DNA from: Kangiella aquimarina DSM 16071
Lineage (GTDB): Bacteria; Pseudomonadota; Gammaproteobacteria; Enterobacterales; Kangiellaceae
Length of the DNA: 64,000 nucleotides
Direction: 5' to 3'
NCBI RefSeq assembly: GCF_000374105.1
Contig: NZ_KB893650.1
Coordinates: forward strand, 1 to 64,000
Part shown: in pieces, positions 39,907 through 47,046 of the stretch
Numbering within the stretch: position 1 is the first letter of the stretch
Layout: every line of letters starts with the position of its first letter
Notes under the pieces: model-generated
Databases searched by the model: none
Told to the model about the DNA's origin: nothing
The model's input: the letters and a program-made list of their open reading frames with translations, nothing else
Translations under genes and position numbers: made by a program

Positions 39907-41736
39907 TCAAGATATCAACTGCTCAAACTCTTTAACAAAGCTATCCACCACCACAATTTGGTTACGACCTTTGCTTTTAGCGCTGTACATAGCCTTGTCG
40001 GCATCGGCAATTAATTCCATCAAATCATAACCGGATAATTGCGTGCTGGTGACCCCAAAGCTGGCTGAAATATCAAACCGATAACCGGTTTCTGTTGTAT
40101 CTACCTGCGAGATTGCTTTACGGCAAATTTCTGCCAGTTGCTGAGCTTTTTTCAGATTACAGGCCGGCAGGAAAATCGCAAACTCTTCACCACCCAAACG
40201 ACCCGCAAGATCATTCTGCCGACAACTGGTTTTGACCACTTCAGCGGTTTTCTGTAATACCCAATCGCCCACCAGGTGACCATACTTATCATTAATGGAT
40301 TTAAAATAGTCCATGTCGAATAGTATAAAACCAACATCCTGCTTTTCCTGCTCACTTCTCTGCAGGATCGCTTTTGCCGTTTCATAAAAGTGGTGACGCG
40401 AACTGAGACCGGTTAATTGATCAGTTTGCGATTGTTTGCGTAAACGAATTTGATTTCTCTTTATGCGATAAGTCCAGAAAGCAAGCGTTCCAAGTAAAAC
40501 CAGAGCCAAAGCCAGAACCAGACGATTATTAACCGCTTCTTTCTTAGCCAAGTCCTGTTCTAATTTAAGTAAAAGGTTTTGTTGATTTAATTGCTCAATT
40601 TTTTGCTGCTTGCTTTCTGTCTCATGCTCGACTAACTGGTATGCCAACTGTTTCGATGATTGATCATTCTTATATCGGTTAATTTTCACCAAATACTCTT
40701 CCAGAAACTCTAAGGCCTGATCCAGCTGACCTCTTTCTTTTAGCAACTGAGAGTTTAGATAATATGCTTCTAATAGCCAGGTTGTTACCGTATCTCTGTT
40801 ATTTTTTTCAGCGGTTTCAATTGCCTTGTTAGCATAAAGTTGAGCTGCTGAGCGGTCCCCAAGGGCACTCAAACTTAAAGCATTTAAAGTGTAGTACCCT
40901 GTTGTTAGATAACTGTATCCCAATTCCTCAACAACTTTTAGCTGACTATTTATTTCTTCACTAGCCTCTTTATATTCCCCACTTCTGATCATGTCTGCTA
41001 ACCAGTAAAACTTTGCAGAGAGGGCGTAGACCGGTTCCTTTTCAGAACAGTTTTGATACGAATACTCGAGAAAGTCAGCTTCTTGCGCATCTATTTTAGA
41101 TAGTTCATACCAGGTTTGAGCCTTTACAGCAGCAAGCAAGCATTTGTCTTTTAAGCCCGCAACAGTATCATCAATCTGAGTTAAATGACTTAAAGTCTGC
41201 TCTGCCAGCTCGTACTGACCTACTTCATTATAAACAATAGCTGCCACCTGATAGATATGATTACGTAGTGAGTCTTCTTGATCATTAGCGCTAGCCAGCA
41301 CATTTTTTATCAGCTCAAGCGCCGCAGCATAGTCCTTATTTAGCACTTGCAAGTTGGCCAAGGCTAACTTGGTTCTAATGACTAATGGGTTATGGGCTCT
41401 ACTGGCAATGACCTTATGATAATATCCAATTGCCTGTTCTGAGTTCCCTTTTAATGCTGCTGCATATCCTAATAAATAATTTCTTAGTGCTTCATTTTCT
41501 TCATCGGGCAACTGAAGCCCTGCGACATAATCTATCTGCTCGAGGAACTGCTGAGGATTTGTAGTTCGTAAGTGGTTAGCAATTTTCAGTTCTTCAATAT
41601 AAGTAATCTCAGTGGCCTTTAATAAACCACCGAGAATACCGACAAGAATTATGGAAAATTTTGAAATCGAACGTGTGATGCTACGCGATTTTAATTTCTT
41701 CTTCCCTGGAGTCATCCTCTGAAGTGTCCTCATCAT
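39907..41736 (-). CDS. TPR-repeat membrane diguanylate cyclase
   Basis: A 609-aa protein: basic N-terminus, signal-anchor (about residues 27-45), a periplasmic TPR array (about 50-370), a Q/K/L coiled coil, a second membrane helix (about 400-420) and a GGDEF domain with intact LGGEEFAIF. The architecture is the envelope-sensing DGC type. Possible starts at 41736, 41733 or 41715 all overlap the 3' end of the borosin precursor gene (stop at 41681) by at least 35 nt, so it is translationally coupled to the precursor. No downstream in-frame start would preserve the signal-anchor. Confidence 0.9.
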   Translation of the reverse strand: MMRTLQRMTPGKKKLKSRSITRSISKFSIILVGILGGLLKATEITYIEELKIANHLRTTNPQQFLEQIDYVAGLQLPDEENEALRNYLLGYAAALKGNSEQAIGYYHKVIASRAHNPLVIRTKLALANLQVLNKDYAAALELIKNVLASANDQEDSLRNHIYQVAAIVYNEVGQYELAEQTLSHLTQIDDTVAGLKDKCLLAAVKAQTWYELSKIDAQEADFLEYSYQNCSEKEPVYALSAKFYWLADMIRSGEYKEASEEINSQLKVVEELGYSYLTTGYYTLNALSLSALGDRSAAQLYANKAIETAEKNNRDTVTTWLLEAYYLNSQLLKERGQLDQALEFLEEYLVKINRYKNDQSSKQLAYQLVEHETESKQQKIEQLNQQNLLLKLEQDLAKKEAVNNRLVLALALVLLGTLAFWTYRIKRNQIRLRKQSQTDQLTGLSSRHHFYETAKAILQRSEQEKQDVGFILFDMDYFKSINDKYGHLVGDWVLQKTAEVVKTSCRQNDLAGRLGGEEFAIFLPACNLKKAQQLAEICRKAISQVDTTETGYRFDISASFGVTSTQLSGYDLMELIADADKAMYSAKSKGRNQIVVVDSFVKEFEQLIS

Positions 41737-41929
41737 CTTCTGCAGGTGCTAAAATCACTGCAACATTGGTATTAGCCCCTAATAAACTTTCCAGTTTAGT
41801 AATATCTCTTTGTGCAATTGCTTCTGCTAGTTCTTGCTCAAAGCCCAAAGCCGTTAATTCAGAAACTGATTGTGACTGTTCTGAAGTAAGGTTAGCAATA
41901 GTTTCGATAAGTTGTAAATTGTGGCTCAT
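41681..41929 (-). CDS. split-borosin precursor peptide 1, VAVILAP core
   Basis: An 82-aa peptide with an AGGAG ribosome site. Residues about 1-52 are helical and end in GFEQELAEAIAQRDITKLESLLG, a form of the borosin-binding domain seen in SonA-like precursors. The hydrophobic strand NVAVILAP (55-62) is the likely site of backbone N-methylation. An unusually acidic tail (64-79, EDDEDTSEDDSREEE) and EIKIA close the protein. It lies 40 nt downstream of a SonM-like methyltransferase in the order GNAT, methyltransferase, precursor. The family call rests on the neighbour and on the layout; the exact methylated residues and any cleavage site are inference. Confidence 0.72.
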   Translation of the reverse strand: MSHNLQLIETIANLTSEQSQSVSELTALGFEQELAEAIAQRDITKLESLLGANTNVAVILAPAEDDEDTSEDDSREEEIKIA

Positions 41930-41969
41930 TTTAATCTCCTTTAAGTGTTGATAAGACCATTAGTTACAA

Positions 41970-42707
41970 TCATTTATTCCTTACTGGTGGTATGACAAGC
42001 GTTGTTTCCAGGCTGGTCTCAACATTTGCTAATTGTTGTAATTGTAATTTTTCTATTCTTGATTCTTTAAATAATACTGCTGCTGATTCATAAAGAATAA
42101 CTTCATGGCTTTCAGGGTAAATTGCAGTCAGTTTCTTTTTAAGTGCTTCTAGCTTTTCTTTTGTTGTCTCAAATTGAGTGAGTTCCTGATCCCCTGCAAT
42201 CCCTATCTGCCAAAGTATTAAATACGCACTTGGCTCAATATTCTTATTATGAATCATATACTGCGTTGTTTCATAATGCTGACAGCCGAACTTGCCGGGG
42301 TCAATAGCTAAATCAGCATATAGGCAGTCTTCTGCCGATATTCCCGGCTCCATATGAGCTTCAAAGCCTTCTTTTCTAGCTGTTTCAATAACTCGATGGG
42401 GAGCAAGTGCAAATACCCCTGGATGTCCGTAAAAAGCCGCACAGACATTTTTGCCGGCTCTAACTTCCTGCATAATTGCAGCAATCATTTGTTTATAGGT
42501 TTCGAGACGTGACTTGCCCTGCTCATAATATTGCCCTAAGTCATGAATATTGGGGTTAAGCTCCTTTATCCAGCTTCCCATCAAGCTACTTGCAACGGCC
42601 ATGAATACAATATCTGCCTGCTCAATTTGCTGTTTTGAAATGGGTGTCATGTGCACCATGAGCTTTATTCCCGTTCCCACACAAACCAGCCTACCTTTCT
42701 TATTCAA
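41970..42707 (-). CDS. SonM-like peptide-backbone alpha-N-methyltransferase 1
   Basis: A 245-aa tetrapyrrole-methylase-fold SAM enzyme of the split-borosin type. The SAM-binding loop is LVCVGTGIKL near residue 7, YGHPGVFA lies near 93-100 and MEPGISAEDCLYADLAIDPG is in the middle. Tyr61, Arg67 and Tyr71 keep the Y-x5-R-x3-Y spacing of the catalytic residues described for OphMA (Tyr66, Arg72, Tyr76). The start is a TTG at 42707 with GGGGATGAG upstream; GNAT 1 ends 3 nt before it. Its precursor follows after 40 nt. It lacks a C-terminal precursor fusion, so methylation would be in trans. Confidence 0.87.
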   Translation of the reverse strand: MNKKGRLVCVGTGIKLMVHMTPISKQQIEQADIVFMAVASSLMGSWIKELNPNIHDLGQYYEQGKSRLETYKQMIAAIMQEVRAGKNVCAAFYGHPGVFALAPHRVIETARKEGFEAHMEPGISAEDCLYADLAIDPGKFGCQHYETTQYMIHNKNIEPSAYLILWQIGIAGDQELTQFETTKEKLEALKKKLTAIYPESHEVILYESAAVLFKESRIEKLQLQQLANVETSLETTLVIPPVRNK

Positions 42708-42710
42708 AAC

Positions 42711-43235
42711 TCATCCCCAATTCTTATTCTCAAACACCCAGTAGCCATAGTCATCATCATTCTTATAATTCTCGAATCCCATACTTTTGACCATGTTGAT
42801 ACTGATATCGTTTTTATGTTTTATACGGCCATATAACTCATCGATTTGCAGCTGGTTTAAAATATCTTTCGTTAAACCCCTAATAGCTTCTTTTGCAATT
42901 CCCCGGGCGACAGCCTGTTTTGCTAAAATAACCCCCAGCTCCCAGTTACCATTAAAAATACTTCTTTGGCTAATTCCTATTAAACCCAGCTTTATATTCT
43001 GTGTTTTGTTTATGATAACCCACAACATGCTGTTTGATGGATTCTGACCTGAAGCAGCTATGTCCTTTTTGAATCTTTCCATAGCCTGGTTATCACTCAA
43101 AGCATCACCAATATGTTGCATCGTCTCCGAGTCTGTAAACAGTGAAACATAAAACTGCTGATCGGACTCGGTGACTAACCTCATACGTAACTGGGTGCTT
43201 TCAAATGATGCAATGCTACTTTCGCTACTAACCAT
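42711..43235 (-). CDS. GNAT-family N-acetyltransferase, borosin cassette 1
   Basis: A RimJ/RimL-type acetyltransferase of 174 aa (LRMRLVTESDQQFYVSLFTD start, WELGVILAKQAVARGIAKEA cofactor-loop region). The sequence resembles the GNAT of cassette 2. It is followed by the methyltransferase with 3 nt between, so the two are translated from one message. Acetylation of the precursor N-terminus, a lysine side chain or an unrelated detoxification target are all possible; the repeated GNAT-methyltransferase order favours a role in the pathway. Confidence 0.82.
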   Translation of the reverse strand: MVSSESSIASFESTQLRMRLVTESDQQFYVSLFTDSETMQHIGDALSDNQAMERFKKDIAASGQNPSNSMLWVIINKTQNIKLGLIGISQRSIFNGNWELGVILAKQAVARGIAKEAIRGLTKDILNQLQIDELYGRIKHKNDISINMVKSMGFENYKNDDDYGYWVFENKNWG

Positions 43236-43451
43236 TGGCTACGTGTATAGTTCTTATTTCCCCAAACACTCCTGATAATACCCATCAACTGTTTGAATAA
43301 CCACCACTTTATTATGTTTAATTCGGTCACTATCTGAACATAAACAAACTTTTACATAAACAATGCTTGCTTCAGAAAAACTATTTACATTTTTACGGCT
43401 GTACCATAAAGTTTGCAGCCTATCCTATAGACCAGATTAGACACCCTCTTG

Positions 43452-44015
43452 ATGGCGTTACAATTTGAAAGTAAGCATTTCGACTATAAACCAACATCTA
43501 CTGATGATGGAGATTTATTTACGAAAATATACACTAACGCAGAACTTATGAAGTATGTTGCACCACCTCTTTCATATGAAGAGGTCACAAAACTTTATCA
43601 GGCAAGCCTTGTATAATGGTCCTTTCAATCAGGTAAATTACTTAATTTTGTTATCCATTGTAAGAAAACTGGCCATAAAATCGGTCTTTGCGGTGTAAAA
43701 ACTTCGGATAGTTATACTAAGCAAGGACATATAGGAGTAATGTTACTTACACAGTACCAGTCTAAGGGCTTCGGAACAGAAATACTTATTGCTTTAAGTG
43801 CTTTTTGTTTTAACTCACTGGGCTATCATAAACTTCTAGGCCCACCAGTCCCCGGAAATACTAAGTCAATAAATATGCTGTTAAATGCAGGTTATCAGAA
43901 GGAAGCAGTTTTAAGAGATAATTGGTTCATAGATGGACAGTATATAGATACACCTCTATATACATTAATTGAAACAGATTTCAGGAAACAGTTTACCTCT
44001 GAGCTATTTAAATAA
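43452..44015 (+). pseudogene. broken GNAT acetyltransferase between the borosin cassettes
   Basis: Reading from the ATG at 43452, a GNAT sequence of about 187 codons continues in frame to 44013, but codon 55 is TAA (43614-43616). The N-terminal part (MALQFESKHFDYKPTS...) matches the start of this family and the rest includes the GVMLLTQYQSKGFGTEIL acetyl-CoA region and a GNTKSINMLLNAGYQKEAV segment. It is convergent with precursor 2 and divergent from GNAT 1. A sequencing error, stop-codon readthrough or a restart at the ATG of 43740 could rescue it, so pseudogene is the likely but not proven state. Confidence 0.78.
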
Positions 44016-44032
44016 CTCAGAGGTAAATATTA

Positions 44033-44236
44033 TTAGGCTTCAGGTGTAAGCAGTAAAAGCTTATGATCTTGGCCATTTGTTGGCTCTAGCAGTAATAGCT
44101 TAGAGCAACTTTGCATTTCTTGTTCTTCAGTAACACCATATAGCTCAAGTACTGCTTCTGGGTTATTTTTATAAACTCTTTTTAGCTCAGAGTTAGTCGC
44201 TAAATCAGTTAACATCTTTACAATTTTAGTATCCAT
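44033..44236 (-). CDS. split-borosin precursor peptide 2, duplicated KLLLLxP core
   Basis: A 67-aa peptide with a GAGAGGA ribosome site. The N-terminal LigA-like helical domain (about residues 1-44; SELKRVYKNNPEAVLELYGVTEEQ in outline) matches the binding domain of Shewanella SonA. The C-terminal core is duplicated: KLLLLEP (46-52) and KLLLLTP (59-65), exactly 13 residues apart, encoded by near-identical DNA 39 nt apart. It lies 59 nt downstream of the second methyltransferase. Iterative methylation of two LLLL tracts is the obvious prediction. Confidence 0.85.
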   Translation of the reverse strand: MDTKIVKMLTDLATNSELKRVYKNNPEAVLELYGVTEEQEMQSCSKLLLLEPTNGQDHKLLLLTPEA

Positions 44237-44295
44237 TTTATCCTCTCTTTTTTATAACCAGTCATTAATACTATATGTAAGTGACAGGTTGTCAA

Positions 44296-45111
44296 TTAAC
44301 ACTCTGTAGTATTTTTGTAGCTCTCTACGGTCAATCCGAAGTGTTTTAAGCCCTCTTCATCCAACTCTAATTTATGCAAGGGAGGTATAACCATTGTGCT
44401 ACTCATACTTAATTCTTTATCTGGTAAGCTACTTAGCGGGAATCGTTCAATTCTTGCTTCTTGGGTAGGTAAAAACGGAGCCTCATATATAATCACTTCG
44501 TGAGATAATGGATACCAGCGGTTCAAATAGGACACAGTTTTTTCAAGGTTGCTTCTTGAGGTACTAAAAGATTGTAGTGTCCACTCTCCTGCAAGACCAA
44601 TTTGCCACAAAATCACATATGAATATAAGTCTAAGTCATGCTTATAAAATAGGAATTGAGTGGTCTCGTAACCCTGACAACCGCTCGCCCCTGGATCTAT
44701 CCCTAAATCAGCAAATAAACAGTCTTCTGCTGATATACCAGGCTCCATAAAAGCATCATAACCTAGTGCTTGTAATTGCCTGATAGCTTCATGAGGTGCC
44801 CATGCAAATACTCCTGGATGTCCATAAAAAGCACCAACTACTTTTTTCCCCGACTTTACTTCATTGACGATAGCCGAGACCATATCTTTATATGTTTCTT
44901 TTCTCGACCTATCCTCTGAATATAAGTTTTGCAAACTTACAAAGTTAGAATTCAGCTCACTAATCCAGCTCTCTGCAATTGGATCTGGCAAAACACCGAA
45001 TACAATATCAGCCTCTTCAATGTAGCTTTTTGCTATAAGCGTAATTTGCCCCGCCAATTGGATACCTGTTCCCACGCAAACTAAAGAGCCTCTGCTAGTT
45101 TCCTCTCTCAT
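44296..45111 (-). CDS. SonM-like peptide-backbone alpha-N-methyltransferase 2
   Basis: A 271-aa SAM enzyme very like SonM of Shewanella oneidensis: GSLVCVGTGIQLAGQI (from residue 8), FYGHPGVFAWAPH (about 95-107), MEPGISAEDCLFADLGIDPG (122-141), LLWQI-like ILWQIGLAGE and a DHEV/SHEVIIYEAP motif. Tyr64, Arg70 and Tyr74 keep the catalytic spacing reported for OphMA. A GGAGA site precedes the ATG. It lacks a fused precursor; precursor 2 lies 59 nt downstream and GNAT 3 44 nt upstream. It is clearly homologous to methyltransferase 1 but not near-identical, so the duplication is not recent. Confidence 0.92.
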   Translation of the reverse strand: MREETSRGSLVCVGTGIQLAGQITLIAKSYIEEADIVFGVLPDPIAESWISELNSNFVSLQNLYSEDRSRKETYKDMVSAIVNEVKSGKKVVGAFYGHPGVFAWAPHEAIRQLQALGYDAFMEPGISAEDCLFADLGIDPGASGCQGYETTQFLFYKHDLDLYSYVILWQIGLAGEWTLQSFSTSRSNLEKTVSYLNRWYPLSHEVIIYEAPFLPTQEARIERFPLSSLPDKELSMSSTMVIPPLHKLELDEEGLKHFGLTVESYKNTTEC

Positions 45112-45155
45112 TATCTCCTACCCCCTTTATAAAAACACACTGTAAACAGCGAGCG

Positions 45156-45695
45156 TTAAAGCTTTATTGCATTATTTACAGATATCATTTTTTTGAATTT
45201 CGCTCTTTCTAAATACCAAATTTGATTATGCTGGTCTTTAGTGTTGCCAGCATACTCAAACCCTAATTTTAGAACAGATTTTTGACAAGGGATATTTCTT
45301 GCTGGAATTGTTCCTAATACTTTTTGGAGGGGGTAATGGTCAAAAACATTTGTTAACAAGTCCGACATAATTTTGGTTCCATAACCTTTTCCTATGCTAG
45401 GTAAAGATAAAACTGCTCCTATTTCCCATAAGCTATCTACCTTTGTCAAACCTACAAACCCAAGAGGCTCAATTGCATTCTCTACAAACCAAATATATCT
45501 CTTTTTTTCATCTTTAGCTCGCTCACTAATTTTATCTTCAAATAGCTCCTCCGCCTCTTCTTGTGAAAAAGGACGGCATATGTATCTCATAACTTCAGGG
45601 TTTGAATAGAGACTTACAAAAAATGATTTATCTACATCTTCAAGAAATCGGTACTTTAAATCTCTGCTCTCGAACTTTTCTAATGACTCGAACAT
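45156..45695 (-). CDS. GNAT-family N-acetyltransferase, borosin cassette 2
   Basis: A 179-aa RimJ/RimL-type acetyltransferase (KFESRDLKYRFLEDVDKSFFVSLYSNPEVMRYI start, GAVLSLPSIGKGYGTKIMSDLL acetyl-CoA region, RNIPCQKSVLKLGFEY end, in outline). It heads the second cassette, 44 nt before the methyltransferase, mirroring GNAT 1. No typical ribosome site is seen before the ATG. Its substrate is not known; see the two-cassette finding. Confidence 0.8.
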   Translation of the reverse strand: MFESLEKFESRDLKYRFLEDVDKSFFVSLYSNPEVMRYICRPFSQEEAEELFEDKISERAKDEKKRYIWFVENAIEPLGFVGLTKVDSLWEIGAVLSLPSIGKGYGTKIMSDLLTNVFDHYPLQKVLGTIPARNIPCQKSVLKLGFEYAGNTKDQHNQIWYLERAKFKKMISVNNAIKL

Positions 45696-45777: not shown

Positions 45778-47046
45778 TTATTTCAACAATTTGGCGGCGA
45801 TGGTTCTAAAACCATGACCGGTTCCGCCTGCTGAGAAATAGGCGGTTGGATTGTCGTTATAGGCTCCAGCAAGATCAACATGAATCCAGCCTTTGCCATC
45901 ATTCGGCACAAAGCGTGACAGGAAGCCAGCGGCATTGCTGGCACCACCCGGGCCACCACCTTTGACAGCGCGGCTGTTAGCTGTGTCAGCAAAATTGGAT
46001 GGGCATTTAGCTGCATGGAACGGCTCCAAAGGTAATGGCCAGTGACGCTCATTTTCACTTTTTGCGACATTTAGATAGTCATTGCGCTCTTCATCGTCAA
46101 GAGCGAACACGGCATTATAGTCTTCGCCGACGGCGGTAACGGCTGCACCAGTAAGCGTTGCTGCATCAATAATCAGAGGCGCGCCAGTTTGACCGGCTAG
46201 CAATAAGCCATCCGCCAGAACCAATCGACCTTCCGCATCGGTGTTATGAATCTCAACCGAAATACCGTTAGGGTATGTAATGATGTCACCCAGCTTGTAA
46301 GCATGACCACTGATCAAGTTTTCCGCACAGCAAAGATACAGATGAACCGGCTTATCAAGACCACGCAAAATAGCTAACGCCAAACCAGCGGTGACCGTCG
46401 CTGCACCACCCATATCTGCTTTCATGTGCAGCATGCCGGCACTTTGCTTAATACTGTAACCGCCGCTGTCAAAAGTAATGCCTTTACCGACTAATGCCGC
46501 CACAGGAGCCGAACTGTCGTTCTTAGGATCAAACTCAAGCTTAAGGATTGCTGGTGGTCGGGTGCTGCCACGTCCTACTTCCCAGGTTCCTACATGACCT
46601 TGCTTTTCAAGATCCTGACCGGAGACAATTTGATAGCGCACATTGTCAGGTGCCAGACTTTGAATAAAGTCGGCAGCTTCCTGTGCCAGAACCTGTGGAG
46701 CTAGCACTTCTGGGGTCTCATTAACCATGGAGCGCATCCAGCGGCTGACCTGCATACGTGCTTCAAGTTCTTTATTGTCATCATCAGACAGCTCAGCAAA
46801 ATCGATCTGGACATCAATTTTTGGATCATAAGCACCCTGGAAAAAAGCCCATTGCTGCTCAAGCTCCCACTCGCCTTCAAGAGTGAAGAAAGAAAGTCCC
46901 TGACTGACCAGTTTACGGGCTGCCATTTGTACCAGGTCAGAACCTTCCGCGTGAATGGTTACTGCATCTTCTTTGTAGCTTAATAATGCACCTTCGCCCC
47001 ATTGCGCCGGCGCGCTATCTGTTGATAACAAAACTTTTAAAGTCAT
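45778..47046 (-). CDS. pepB: aminopeptidase B (M17 family)
   Basis: A cytoplasmic two-metal leucyl-aminopeptidase-family enzyme, 422 aa. VGKGITFDSGGYSIK, MKADMGGAATV and the signature NTDAEGRLVLADGL supply the metal and catalytic residues. Sequence and length match E. coli PepB better than PepA. ribA lies 64 nt upstream on the same strand, so the two may be co-transcribed. Confidence 0.93.
   Translation of the reverse strand: MTLKVLLSTDSAPAQWGEGALLSYKEDAVTIHAEGSDLVQMAARKLVSQGLSFFTLEGEWELEQQWAFFQGAYDPKIDVQIDFAELSDDDNKELEARMQVSRWMRSMVNETPEVLAPQVLAQEAADFIQSLAPDNVRYQIVSGQDLEKQGHVGTWEVGRGSTRPPAILKLEFDPKNDSSAPVAALVGKGITFDSGGYSIKQSAGMLHMKADMGGAATVTAGLALAILRGLDKPVHLYLCCAENLISGHAYKLGDIITYPNGISVEIHNTDAEGRLVLADGLLLAGQTGAPLIIDAATLTGAAVTAVGEDYNAVFALDDEERNDYLNVAKSENERHWPLPLEPFHAAKCPSNFADTANSRAVKGGGPGGASNAAGFLSRFVPNDGKGWIHVDLAGAYNDNPTAYFSAGGTGHGFRTIAAKLLK

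Follow-up and report, generated by a model that had tools for sequence, protein, structure and literature searches.

What do two neighboring gene sets, each composed of an acetyltransferase, a methyltransferase and a short peptide precursor, do for the bacterium that carries them, and which of the adjoining genes belong to the system? This question is raised by a locus of Kangiella aquimarina DSM 16071 within a stretch of 64,000 nucleotides (NCBI RefSeq assembly GCF_000374105.1, contig NZ_KB893650.1, positions 1 to 64,000), which as a whole is called the window here; the host genome comprises 2.68 Mb in three contigs. Judged by their sequences, the gene sets are two different type IV split-borosin cassettes lying side by side, and both probably methylate the backbones of small peptides. 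Their most constant extra component is a membrane protein with tetratricopeptide repeats (TPR) and a GGDEF domain, the gene of which starts inside that of precursor 1. On balance we favor, with modest confidence, the reading that borosin cassettes are peptide-signaling modules and that cassette 1 has its own sensor, a TPR-containing diguanylate cyclase (DGC). The consulted passages of the borosin literature are silent on how split borosins benefit the bacterium, though many bacteria have them.

Organization of the Locus

Both cassettes are encoded on the minus strand, cassette 2 at 45695-44033 and cassette 1 at 43235-41681, and the open reading frames (ORFs) were found where the original prediction, made from the letters of this DNA, had placed them. 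Read along the minus strand, the genes follow in the order M17 aminopeptidase, GNAT2, methyltransferase 2 (MT2), precursor 2, GNAT1, MT1, precursor 1 and TPR-GGDEF, and a broken GNAT gene lies on the plus strand between precursor 2 and GNAT1. The earlier description of this range was incomplete: it mentioned neither the broken GNAT nor the TPR-GGDEF gene (41736-39907), and so overlooked the most constant partner within its own coordinates. In cassette 1, GNAT1 and MT1 are separated by 3 nt and MT1 and precursor 1 by 40 nt, and precursor 1 and the TPR-GGDEF gene share 56 nt, provided that the latter starts at its first ATG, a spacing as in coupled operons.

Relationship of the Methyltransferases to SonM

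MT1 (41970..42707, minus strand, TTG start) and MT2 (44296..45111, minus strand) both contain the Pfam domain TP_methylase (E 8.3e-19 and 2.5e-18), and for both the closest solved structure is SonM (E 1.6e-68 for MT1 and, as 7ltc, 2.1e-87 for MT2), followed by OphMA-type fungal enzymes. By sequence, MT1 and MT2 are thus SonM-type borosin enzymes, as had been proposed. The fold name in Pfam would also suit tetrapyrrole or cobalamin methyltransferases that merely stand beside unrelated small ORFs, a reading that is already refuted and to which we give practically no credence: the search and the tree called for by the original prediction found SonM kin, the sole cobalamin enzyme listed up to E 0.001 among solved structures was 2e0k (MT1 only, E 1.5e-4), more than 60 orders of magnitude behind SonM, none of the NCBIfam cobalamin models reached its cut-off with the MTs, and precursor families that match SonA are repeatedly found with the MT. 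The Tyr-x5-Arg-x3-Tyr spacing noted earlier is real, since Y64, R70 and Y74 of MT2 are invariant across 13 aligned relatives, MT1 included, and align with Y58, R67 and Y71 of SonM, mutants of which are slow according to the consulted part of the SonM/SonA study (PMC8429565).

In a tree of 154 MTs, built by a quick method with SH-aLRT support only and containing several long branches, MT1 groups with enzymes of type B, and MT2 groups with those of the multi-core kind (type C), in the same half of the tree as the Shewanella enzymes; as a single branch the C group is weakly supported (SH-aLRT 52). The repeated gene order that had been described as a cassette occurring twice in tandem is real, but tandem duplication was rejected as its origin, for MT1 and MT2 are 50% identical and belong to different clades, and GNAT1 and GNAT2 are 25% identical. 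An MT of this kind was found in 38 of the 40 genomes of the family, so that its presence here is no matter of chance. A borosin-like MT outside the class is contained in an ORF of 1174 aa at locus L247 (2940-6464, minus strand).

Precursor Peptides and Their Cores

The precursors are of three kinds, separated by profile score: SonA-like (A), those with a SonA-related leader, a core of the form [IVL]-[VC]-C-x-[LIV]-x-P-A-[EDK]-[DE] and an acidic tail (B), and multi-core precursors with a lysine preceding each hydrophobic core (C). At a low threshold, leaders of type A are picked up by the type B profile as well, and the type was therefore assigned by the best score. In its loose form this profile caught 114 ORFs. 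The P-[AG]-acidic motif is present in 61 of them, a few of which look like matches by chance or in a wrong frame; many of the remaining 53 are of type A. A cysteine lies within ten residues before the motif in 47 of the 61.

Precursor 1 (41681..41929, minus strand, 82 aa) consists of a leader, the single core NVAVILA-PAEDDED (codons about 41767-41732) and an acidic tail; unlike the type B consensus, this core has no cysteine. A search with the single sequence of precursor 1 gave no match to SonA, and the relationship appears through its family, as the type B profile matches SonA with E 0.011 and the SonA family with an hhalign probability of 97. Precursor 2 (44033..44236, minus strand, 67 aa) matches SonA directly over residues 8-40 of its leader (E 0.001) and carries, according to its translation, two Lys-Leu4-x-Pro cores, SKLLLLEP and HKLLLLTP. 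Both claims made earlier, that the precursors are of the SonA kind and that their cores differ, are thereby borne out. As in the type IV split borosin SonM/SonA of Shewanella, a discrete MT and a discrete, separately encoded precursor with SonA-related leader lie adjacent to each other and the catalytic residues are shared. The published system consists of MT and precursor, whereas here GNAT genes, other cores and a second, multi-core cassette are found in addition.

The multi-core kind is rare. All six C cassettes of the set (window, L034, L035, L036, L039 and L100; four of them from one genus, that of L100 assigned by eye) adjoin a type B MT, which in L036 is a contig-end fragment. The core is present in two copies in the window, a 39-bp unit in 5.5 copies in L039 and a 66-bp unit in 4.6 copies in Colwellia (L100). 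At L232 (4862-6444, minus strand), a SonM-like MT adjoins another multi-core precursor, in which DAAIIKGYA is repeated more than ten times; neither a B cassette nor a TPR partner was found nearby.

The TPR Protein as the Most Constant Partner

A TPR protein was counted when it was encoded on the same strand at -2.3 to +3.3 kb of the MT. Of 154 distinct MT loci (162 rows minus 8 with identical MT), 138 have such a neighbor: 62/63 loci of type A, 71/72 of type B, 0/5 of type C and 5/14 unassigned ones. The loci are not independent of each other, since L004 and L034-L098 were chosen for an MT in one family and L099-L178 are the best 80 of 570 relatives of the query. The misses are L195 (type A, with a very distant MT), L151 (type B, with a TPR-GGDEF gene at +3.5 kb) and all type C loci, to which the unassigned loci add five distant MTs, three contig-edge loci and the C cassette of L100. 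The density of TPR ORFs amounts to 0.19 per kb beside the MT versus 0.03 further out (130 loci flanked on each side by 5.5 kb or more). Apart from precursor, TPR and GNAT genes, the neighbors are lineage-specific, and the linkage is not explained by shared synteny, for the housekeeping genes on the flanks vary from lineage to lineage. All 21 Shewanella and Parashewanella loci of the set that are uncut by a contig end have a TPR-GGDEF gene beside the MT; S. oneidensis MR-1 is outside this set.

A TPR partner, predicted beforehand, was found for 38 of 42 new MTs, for 34 of 38 when the repeats L208, L210, L216 and L245 are removed, and for 33 of 35 at the stated E up to 1e-90, again with repeats removed; this test drew on 40 of 46 further places, and all 38 MTs are <80% identical to the earlier ones. 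Misses occurred at L218 (TPR-GGDEF on the opposite strand), L232 (multi-core), L237, where an extra match to the MT profile at the end is unlike the earlier MTs, and L247. Two distant borosin-like MTs, at L194 and L198, stand without TPR next to a membrane protein that by eye resembles a transporter.

The TPR-GGDEF protein of the window (39907..41736, minus strand, 609 aa; Pfam GGDEF E 6.3e-46, TPR_12 E 3.4e-7) consists, according to hydropathy and a structural model, of a hydrophobic N-terminus, a TPR part, a single membrane segment near residue 407 and a diguanylate cyclase domain. Its GGEEF active site (G515, G516, E517, E518, F519) and the RxxD motif (R506, D509) are invariant in 23 sequences, and so are two cysteines of the TPR part. 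Across the loci the output domain varies between GGDEF, histidine kinase and none; a catalytic output is kept in at least 102 of the 138 loci with TPR partner, and TPR-only proteins take the place of the sensor at 21 type A loci. By our own hydropathy thresholds, with repeats and unlinked TPR genes included and seven short proteins set aside, a membrane segment precedes GGDEF in 123/123 TPR-GGDEF proteins with 540 aa or more, 114/123 of which have an N-terminal hydrophobic segment, TPR-kinases have both in 12/12, and TPR-only proteins have the N-terminal segment in 37/41 and a membrane segment in 4/41.

The model of the full protein (pLDDT 87.4) contains the TPR part, one long helix and the GGDEF domain. 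As all 50 Foldseek matches listed for it were GGDEF-domain entries, the TPR part was modeled alone (pLDDT 91.6); it matched LGN first, followed by the peptide receptors Rap, NprR and RapI, which make up 14 of the best 50 (TM score up to 0.64). With the RRNPP receptors such as Rap and NprR the sensor shares a TPR superhelix of similar modeled fold and a small peptide gene alongside. Those receptors are soluble and cytoplasmic with DNA-binding or phosphatase output, whereas the sensor described here is predicted to be periplasmic and membrane-bound, with hydrophobic and membrane segments and GGDEF or kinase output, and its peptide is predicted to be N-methylated. On account of these segments and outputs, the sensor may work like an RRNPP receptor but is not a member of the family. 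A TPR-GGDEF protein is also known from Vibrio vulnificus, where, according to the consulted part of PMC12282931, the RcbA/RcbB system includes a cyclase that is repressed by its own TPR part until a partner relieves this; it differs in its predicted cytoplasmic location and in having a TPR protein as partner instead of a peptide.

A borosin architecture with GGDEF is already known, as this domain is named among the borosin architectures (types 0-XI) in PMC11395268, in the legend to Figure 1. The part of the SonM/SonA study consulted (PMC8429565) names neither TPR nor GGDEF. The term tetratricopeptide was not found in the borosin literature searched. The gene following sonA is presumably SO1480, of which no mention was found in that literature either.

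Optional Acetyltransferases and an Associated Protease

GNAT1 (42711..43235, minus strand; Acetyltransf_3 E 2e-20) and GNAT2 (45156..45695, minus strand; Acetyltransf_3 E 4.1e-18) are the first genes of cassettes 1 and 2, and both have the G-x-G/A acetyl-CoA loop, as G-I-A and G-Y-G, respectively. The third GNAT is broken into two ORFs on the plus strand (43449-43616 and 43740-44015, together 43449..44015), of which the second matches Acetyltransf_3 (E 2.7e-6) and the first no Pfam family; tblastn supports the assignment, and an unbroken counterpart of 187 aa exists in genome G019 (L035).

The GNAT is a real but optional part of the cassettes. Counted on either strand at -1.7 to +0.9 kb of the MT, it is present in 46 of 72 type B loci, other genera included (22 without, 4 at edges), in none of 63 type A loci (one at an edge) and in 3 of 5 type C loci, or 4 of 6 when the C cassette of L100, assigned by eye, is included; in the later test loci without repeats the counts are 6/10 for B, 0/23 for A and 1/5 for unassigned. 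Across the 130 loci with long flanks, GNAT density is 0.13 per kb near the MT versus 0.009 per kb elsewhere. The idea that the acetyltransferase is a true third component therefore holds as far as its recurrence in other genera is concerned but not as a general rule, the type A loci lacking it and cassette 2 of G019 (L035) having no GNAT2 upstream. Since the clade of MT2 falls in the other half of the tree, the GNAT was either acquired on more than one occasion or passed from one cassette to another.

Compared with its counterparts in G019, G017 and G025, GNAT1 is 83, 70 and 50% identical, versus 93, 86 and 90% for MT1. This fast change speaks, together with the loss of the acetyl-CoA loop in 12 of 50 linked GNATs (it is present in 38), against one strictly kept acetylation step, and a +42 Da shift is not to be assumed because the GNAT is optional and the loop is missing in these twelve. 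Acetylation of a core lysine was considered as a general role and rejected, for lysines precede the multi-core cores, but type B precursors mostly have none (8/61 at position -7). Borosins and GNATs are both mentioned in at least two papers, PMC9505594 and PMC12048977; in the consulted part of the former, GNATs are discussed for selidamides.

Of the 40 family genomes, 24 encode a pepsin-like protease (Pfam Asp, E 8.5e-17). Among genomes that carry a type B cassette 23 of 24 have it, versus 1 of 16 among those that do not, relatedness being uncorrected, and within the genus in 12/12 with versus 0/8 without. Like shewasin it is a pepsin-like aspartyl protease; its gene lies near the cassette in 12 loci, mostly just upstream, in contrast to the host genome, where the homologue is unlinked (C1:492173-493405). 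There, at L206 (17162-19764), this homologue is encoded near an ORF that by eye resembles a piece of a TonB-dependent receptor. Shewasin A reportedly cleaves a borosin precursor (work of Lee et al. from 2024).

Proposed Mechanism and Alternatives

In the mechanism that we propose, the SonM-type enzyme would grip a separate precursor by its helical leader and methylate backbone nitrogens in the hydrophobic core, and GNAT1, MT1, precursor 1 and the TPR-DGC of cassette 1 would form a signaling operon. The methylated peptide would be excised, probably by the pepsin-like protease encoded elsewhere in the genome, and the GNAT would perhaps cap its new N-terminus. The peptide might then cross the inner membrane and bind the diguanylate cyclase at its periplasmic TPR superhelix, and so alter the synthesis of cyclic di-GMP (c-di-GMP). 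Cassette 2 would yield two short Lys-Leu4-x-Pro peptides from one multi-core precursor and, being sensorless itself, may act through the neighboring sensor. The near-constant TPR sensor beside a SonM-type enzyme, Shewanella included, turns this into a testable claim, namely that the peptide controls c-di-GMP or a kinase; if true, a modified-peptide signal would be added to Gram-negative biology and roles would be suggested for bacterial pepsins and the linked GNATs. A wider version, which we put forward tentatively and incline slightly to doubt, is that SonM-clade borosins are a widespread form of Gram-negative signaling with an N-methylated peptide ligand, a membrane TPR receptor and interchangeable outputs (cyclase, kinase or soluble TPR), in which methylation would provide protease resistance and allow passive passage through the membrane in place of a transporter; the window would then be a two-channel version, with a single-core and a multi-core peptide and one receptor.

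Several observations weigh against a signaling role. In a less selected sample of the class (nine further genomes with an MT among 369) a TPR partner was found in three (L191, L197, L199) and not in the other six, so that the link belongs to the SonM clade and its near kin and not to all related MTs. There is no transporter within the cassettes, and shewasin D has its optimum at pH 3.5-4.0 and yet is cytoplasmic, according to the consulted part of PMC4814920. In the structural comparison LGN outranks the peptide receptors, TPR superhelices all being somewhat alike. Coevolution of ligand and receptor within Kangiella was looked for and not seen, because the TPR part varies (67-91% identity; 67% and 76% against G017 and G025, with 89% and 93% for GGDEF) and the core of precursor 1 is nearly unchanged. 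Finally, the multi-core cassettes themselves lack a TPR partner, and some TPR-GGDEF proteins are encoded away from borosin genes, among them two in the host genome, with no MT in the stretches around their genes.

The last two points also favor ordinary natural-product clusters, in which the peptide acts outward, for example as an antagonist or metal binder, and the co-transcribed TPR-DGC or kinase regulates or senses other things, as gene clusters often carry their own regulators. We hold this to be unlikely, though worth keeping in mind, for the sensor is nearly constant across the 63 type A and 72 type B loci, its TPR part is retained when the output domain is swapped, and among the neighbors no family of transporter or resistance genes is found repeatedly across lineages. 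Alternatively, the TPR part might be a handling partner that, by binding the modified precursor, serves its folding, cleavage or export, the output domain reporting on this traffic; the TPR-only proteins with their N-terminal hydrophobic segment, which replace the sensor at many type A loci, would fit such a role. The MT and the studied pepsin homologue, however, are cytoplasmic or devoid of export signals, whereas the TPR part is predicted to be periplasmic, and the retention of a catalytic output at most loci also speaks against it, so that we regard this as improbable. Signaling by the peptide through the TPR sensor thus remains the reading that we prefer.

Further Features of the Locus

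The M17 aminopeptidase upstream (45778..47046, minus strand; Peptidase_M17 E 9.4e-95) was rejected as a cassette part, as it is common to 13 loci and the neighbors are different in other lineages. The same genome contains a third borosin cassette (L004 8597-11980, C1 about 553600-557000), located after gcvP and composed of an MT, a 73-aa precursor of the SonA-like kind and a pair of TPR genes without GGDEF, with no GNAT. A terminator-like hairpin with a 16-pair stem, recognized by consensus match only, lies 3' of precursor 2 (43992..44027, minus strand); such hairpins are weak evidence, the consensus scan giving 7 sites versus 4.4 (sd 1.9) in shuffles. A second one (41635-41607, minus strand) is found at the start of the TPR-GGDEF gene right after precursor 1, and it could control the ratio of precursor 1 to TPR-GGDEF or be a chance match.

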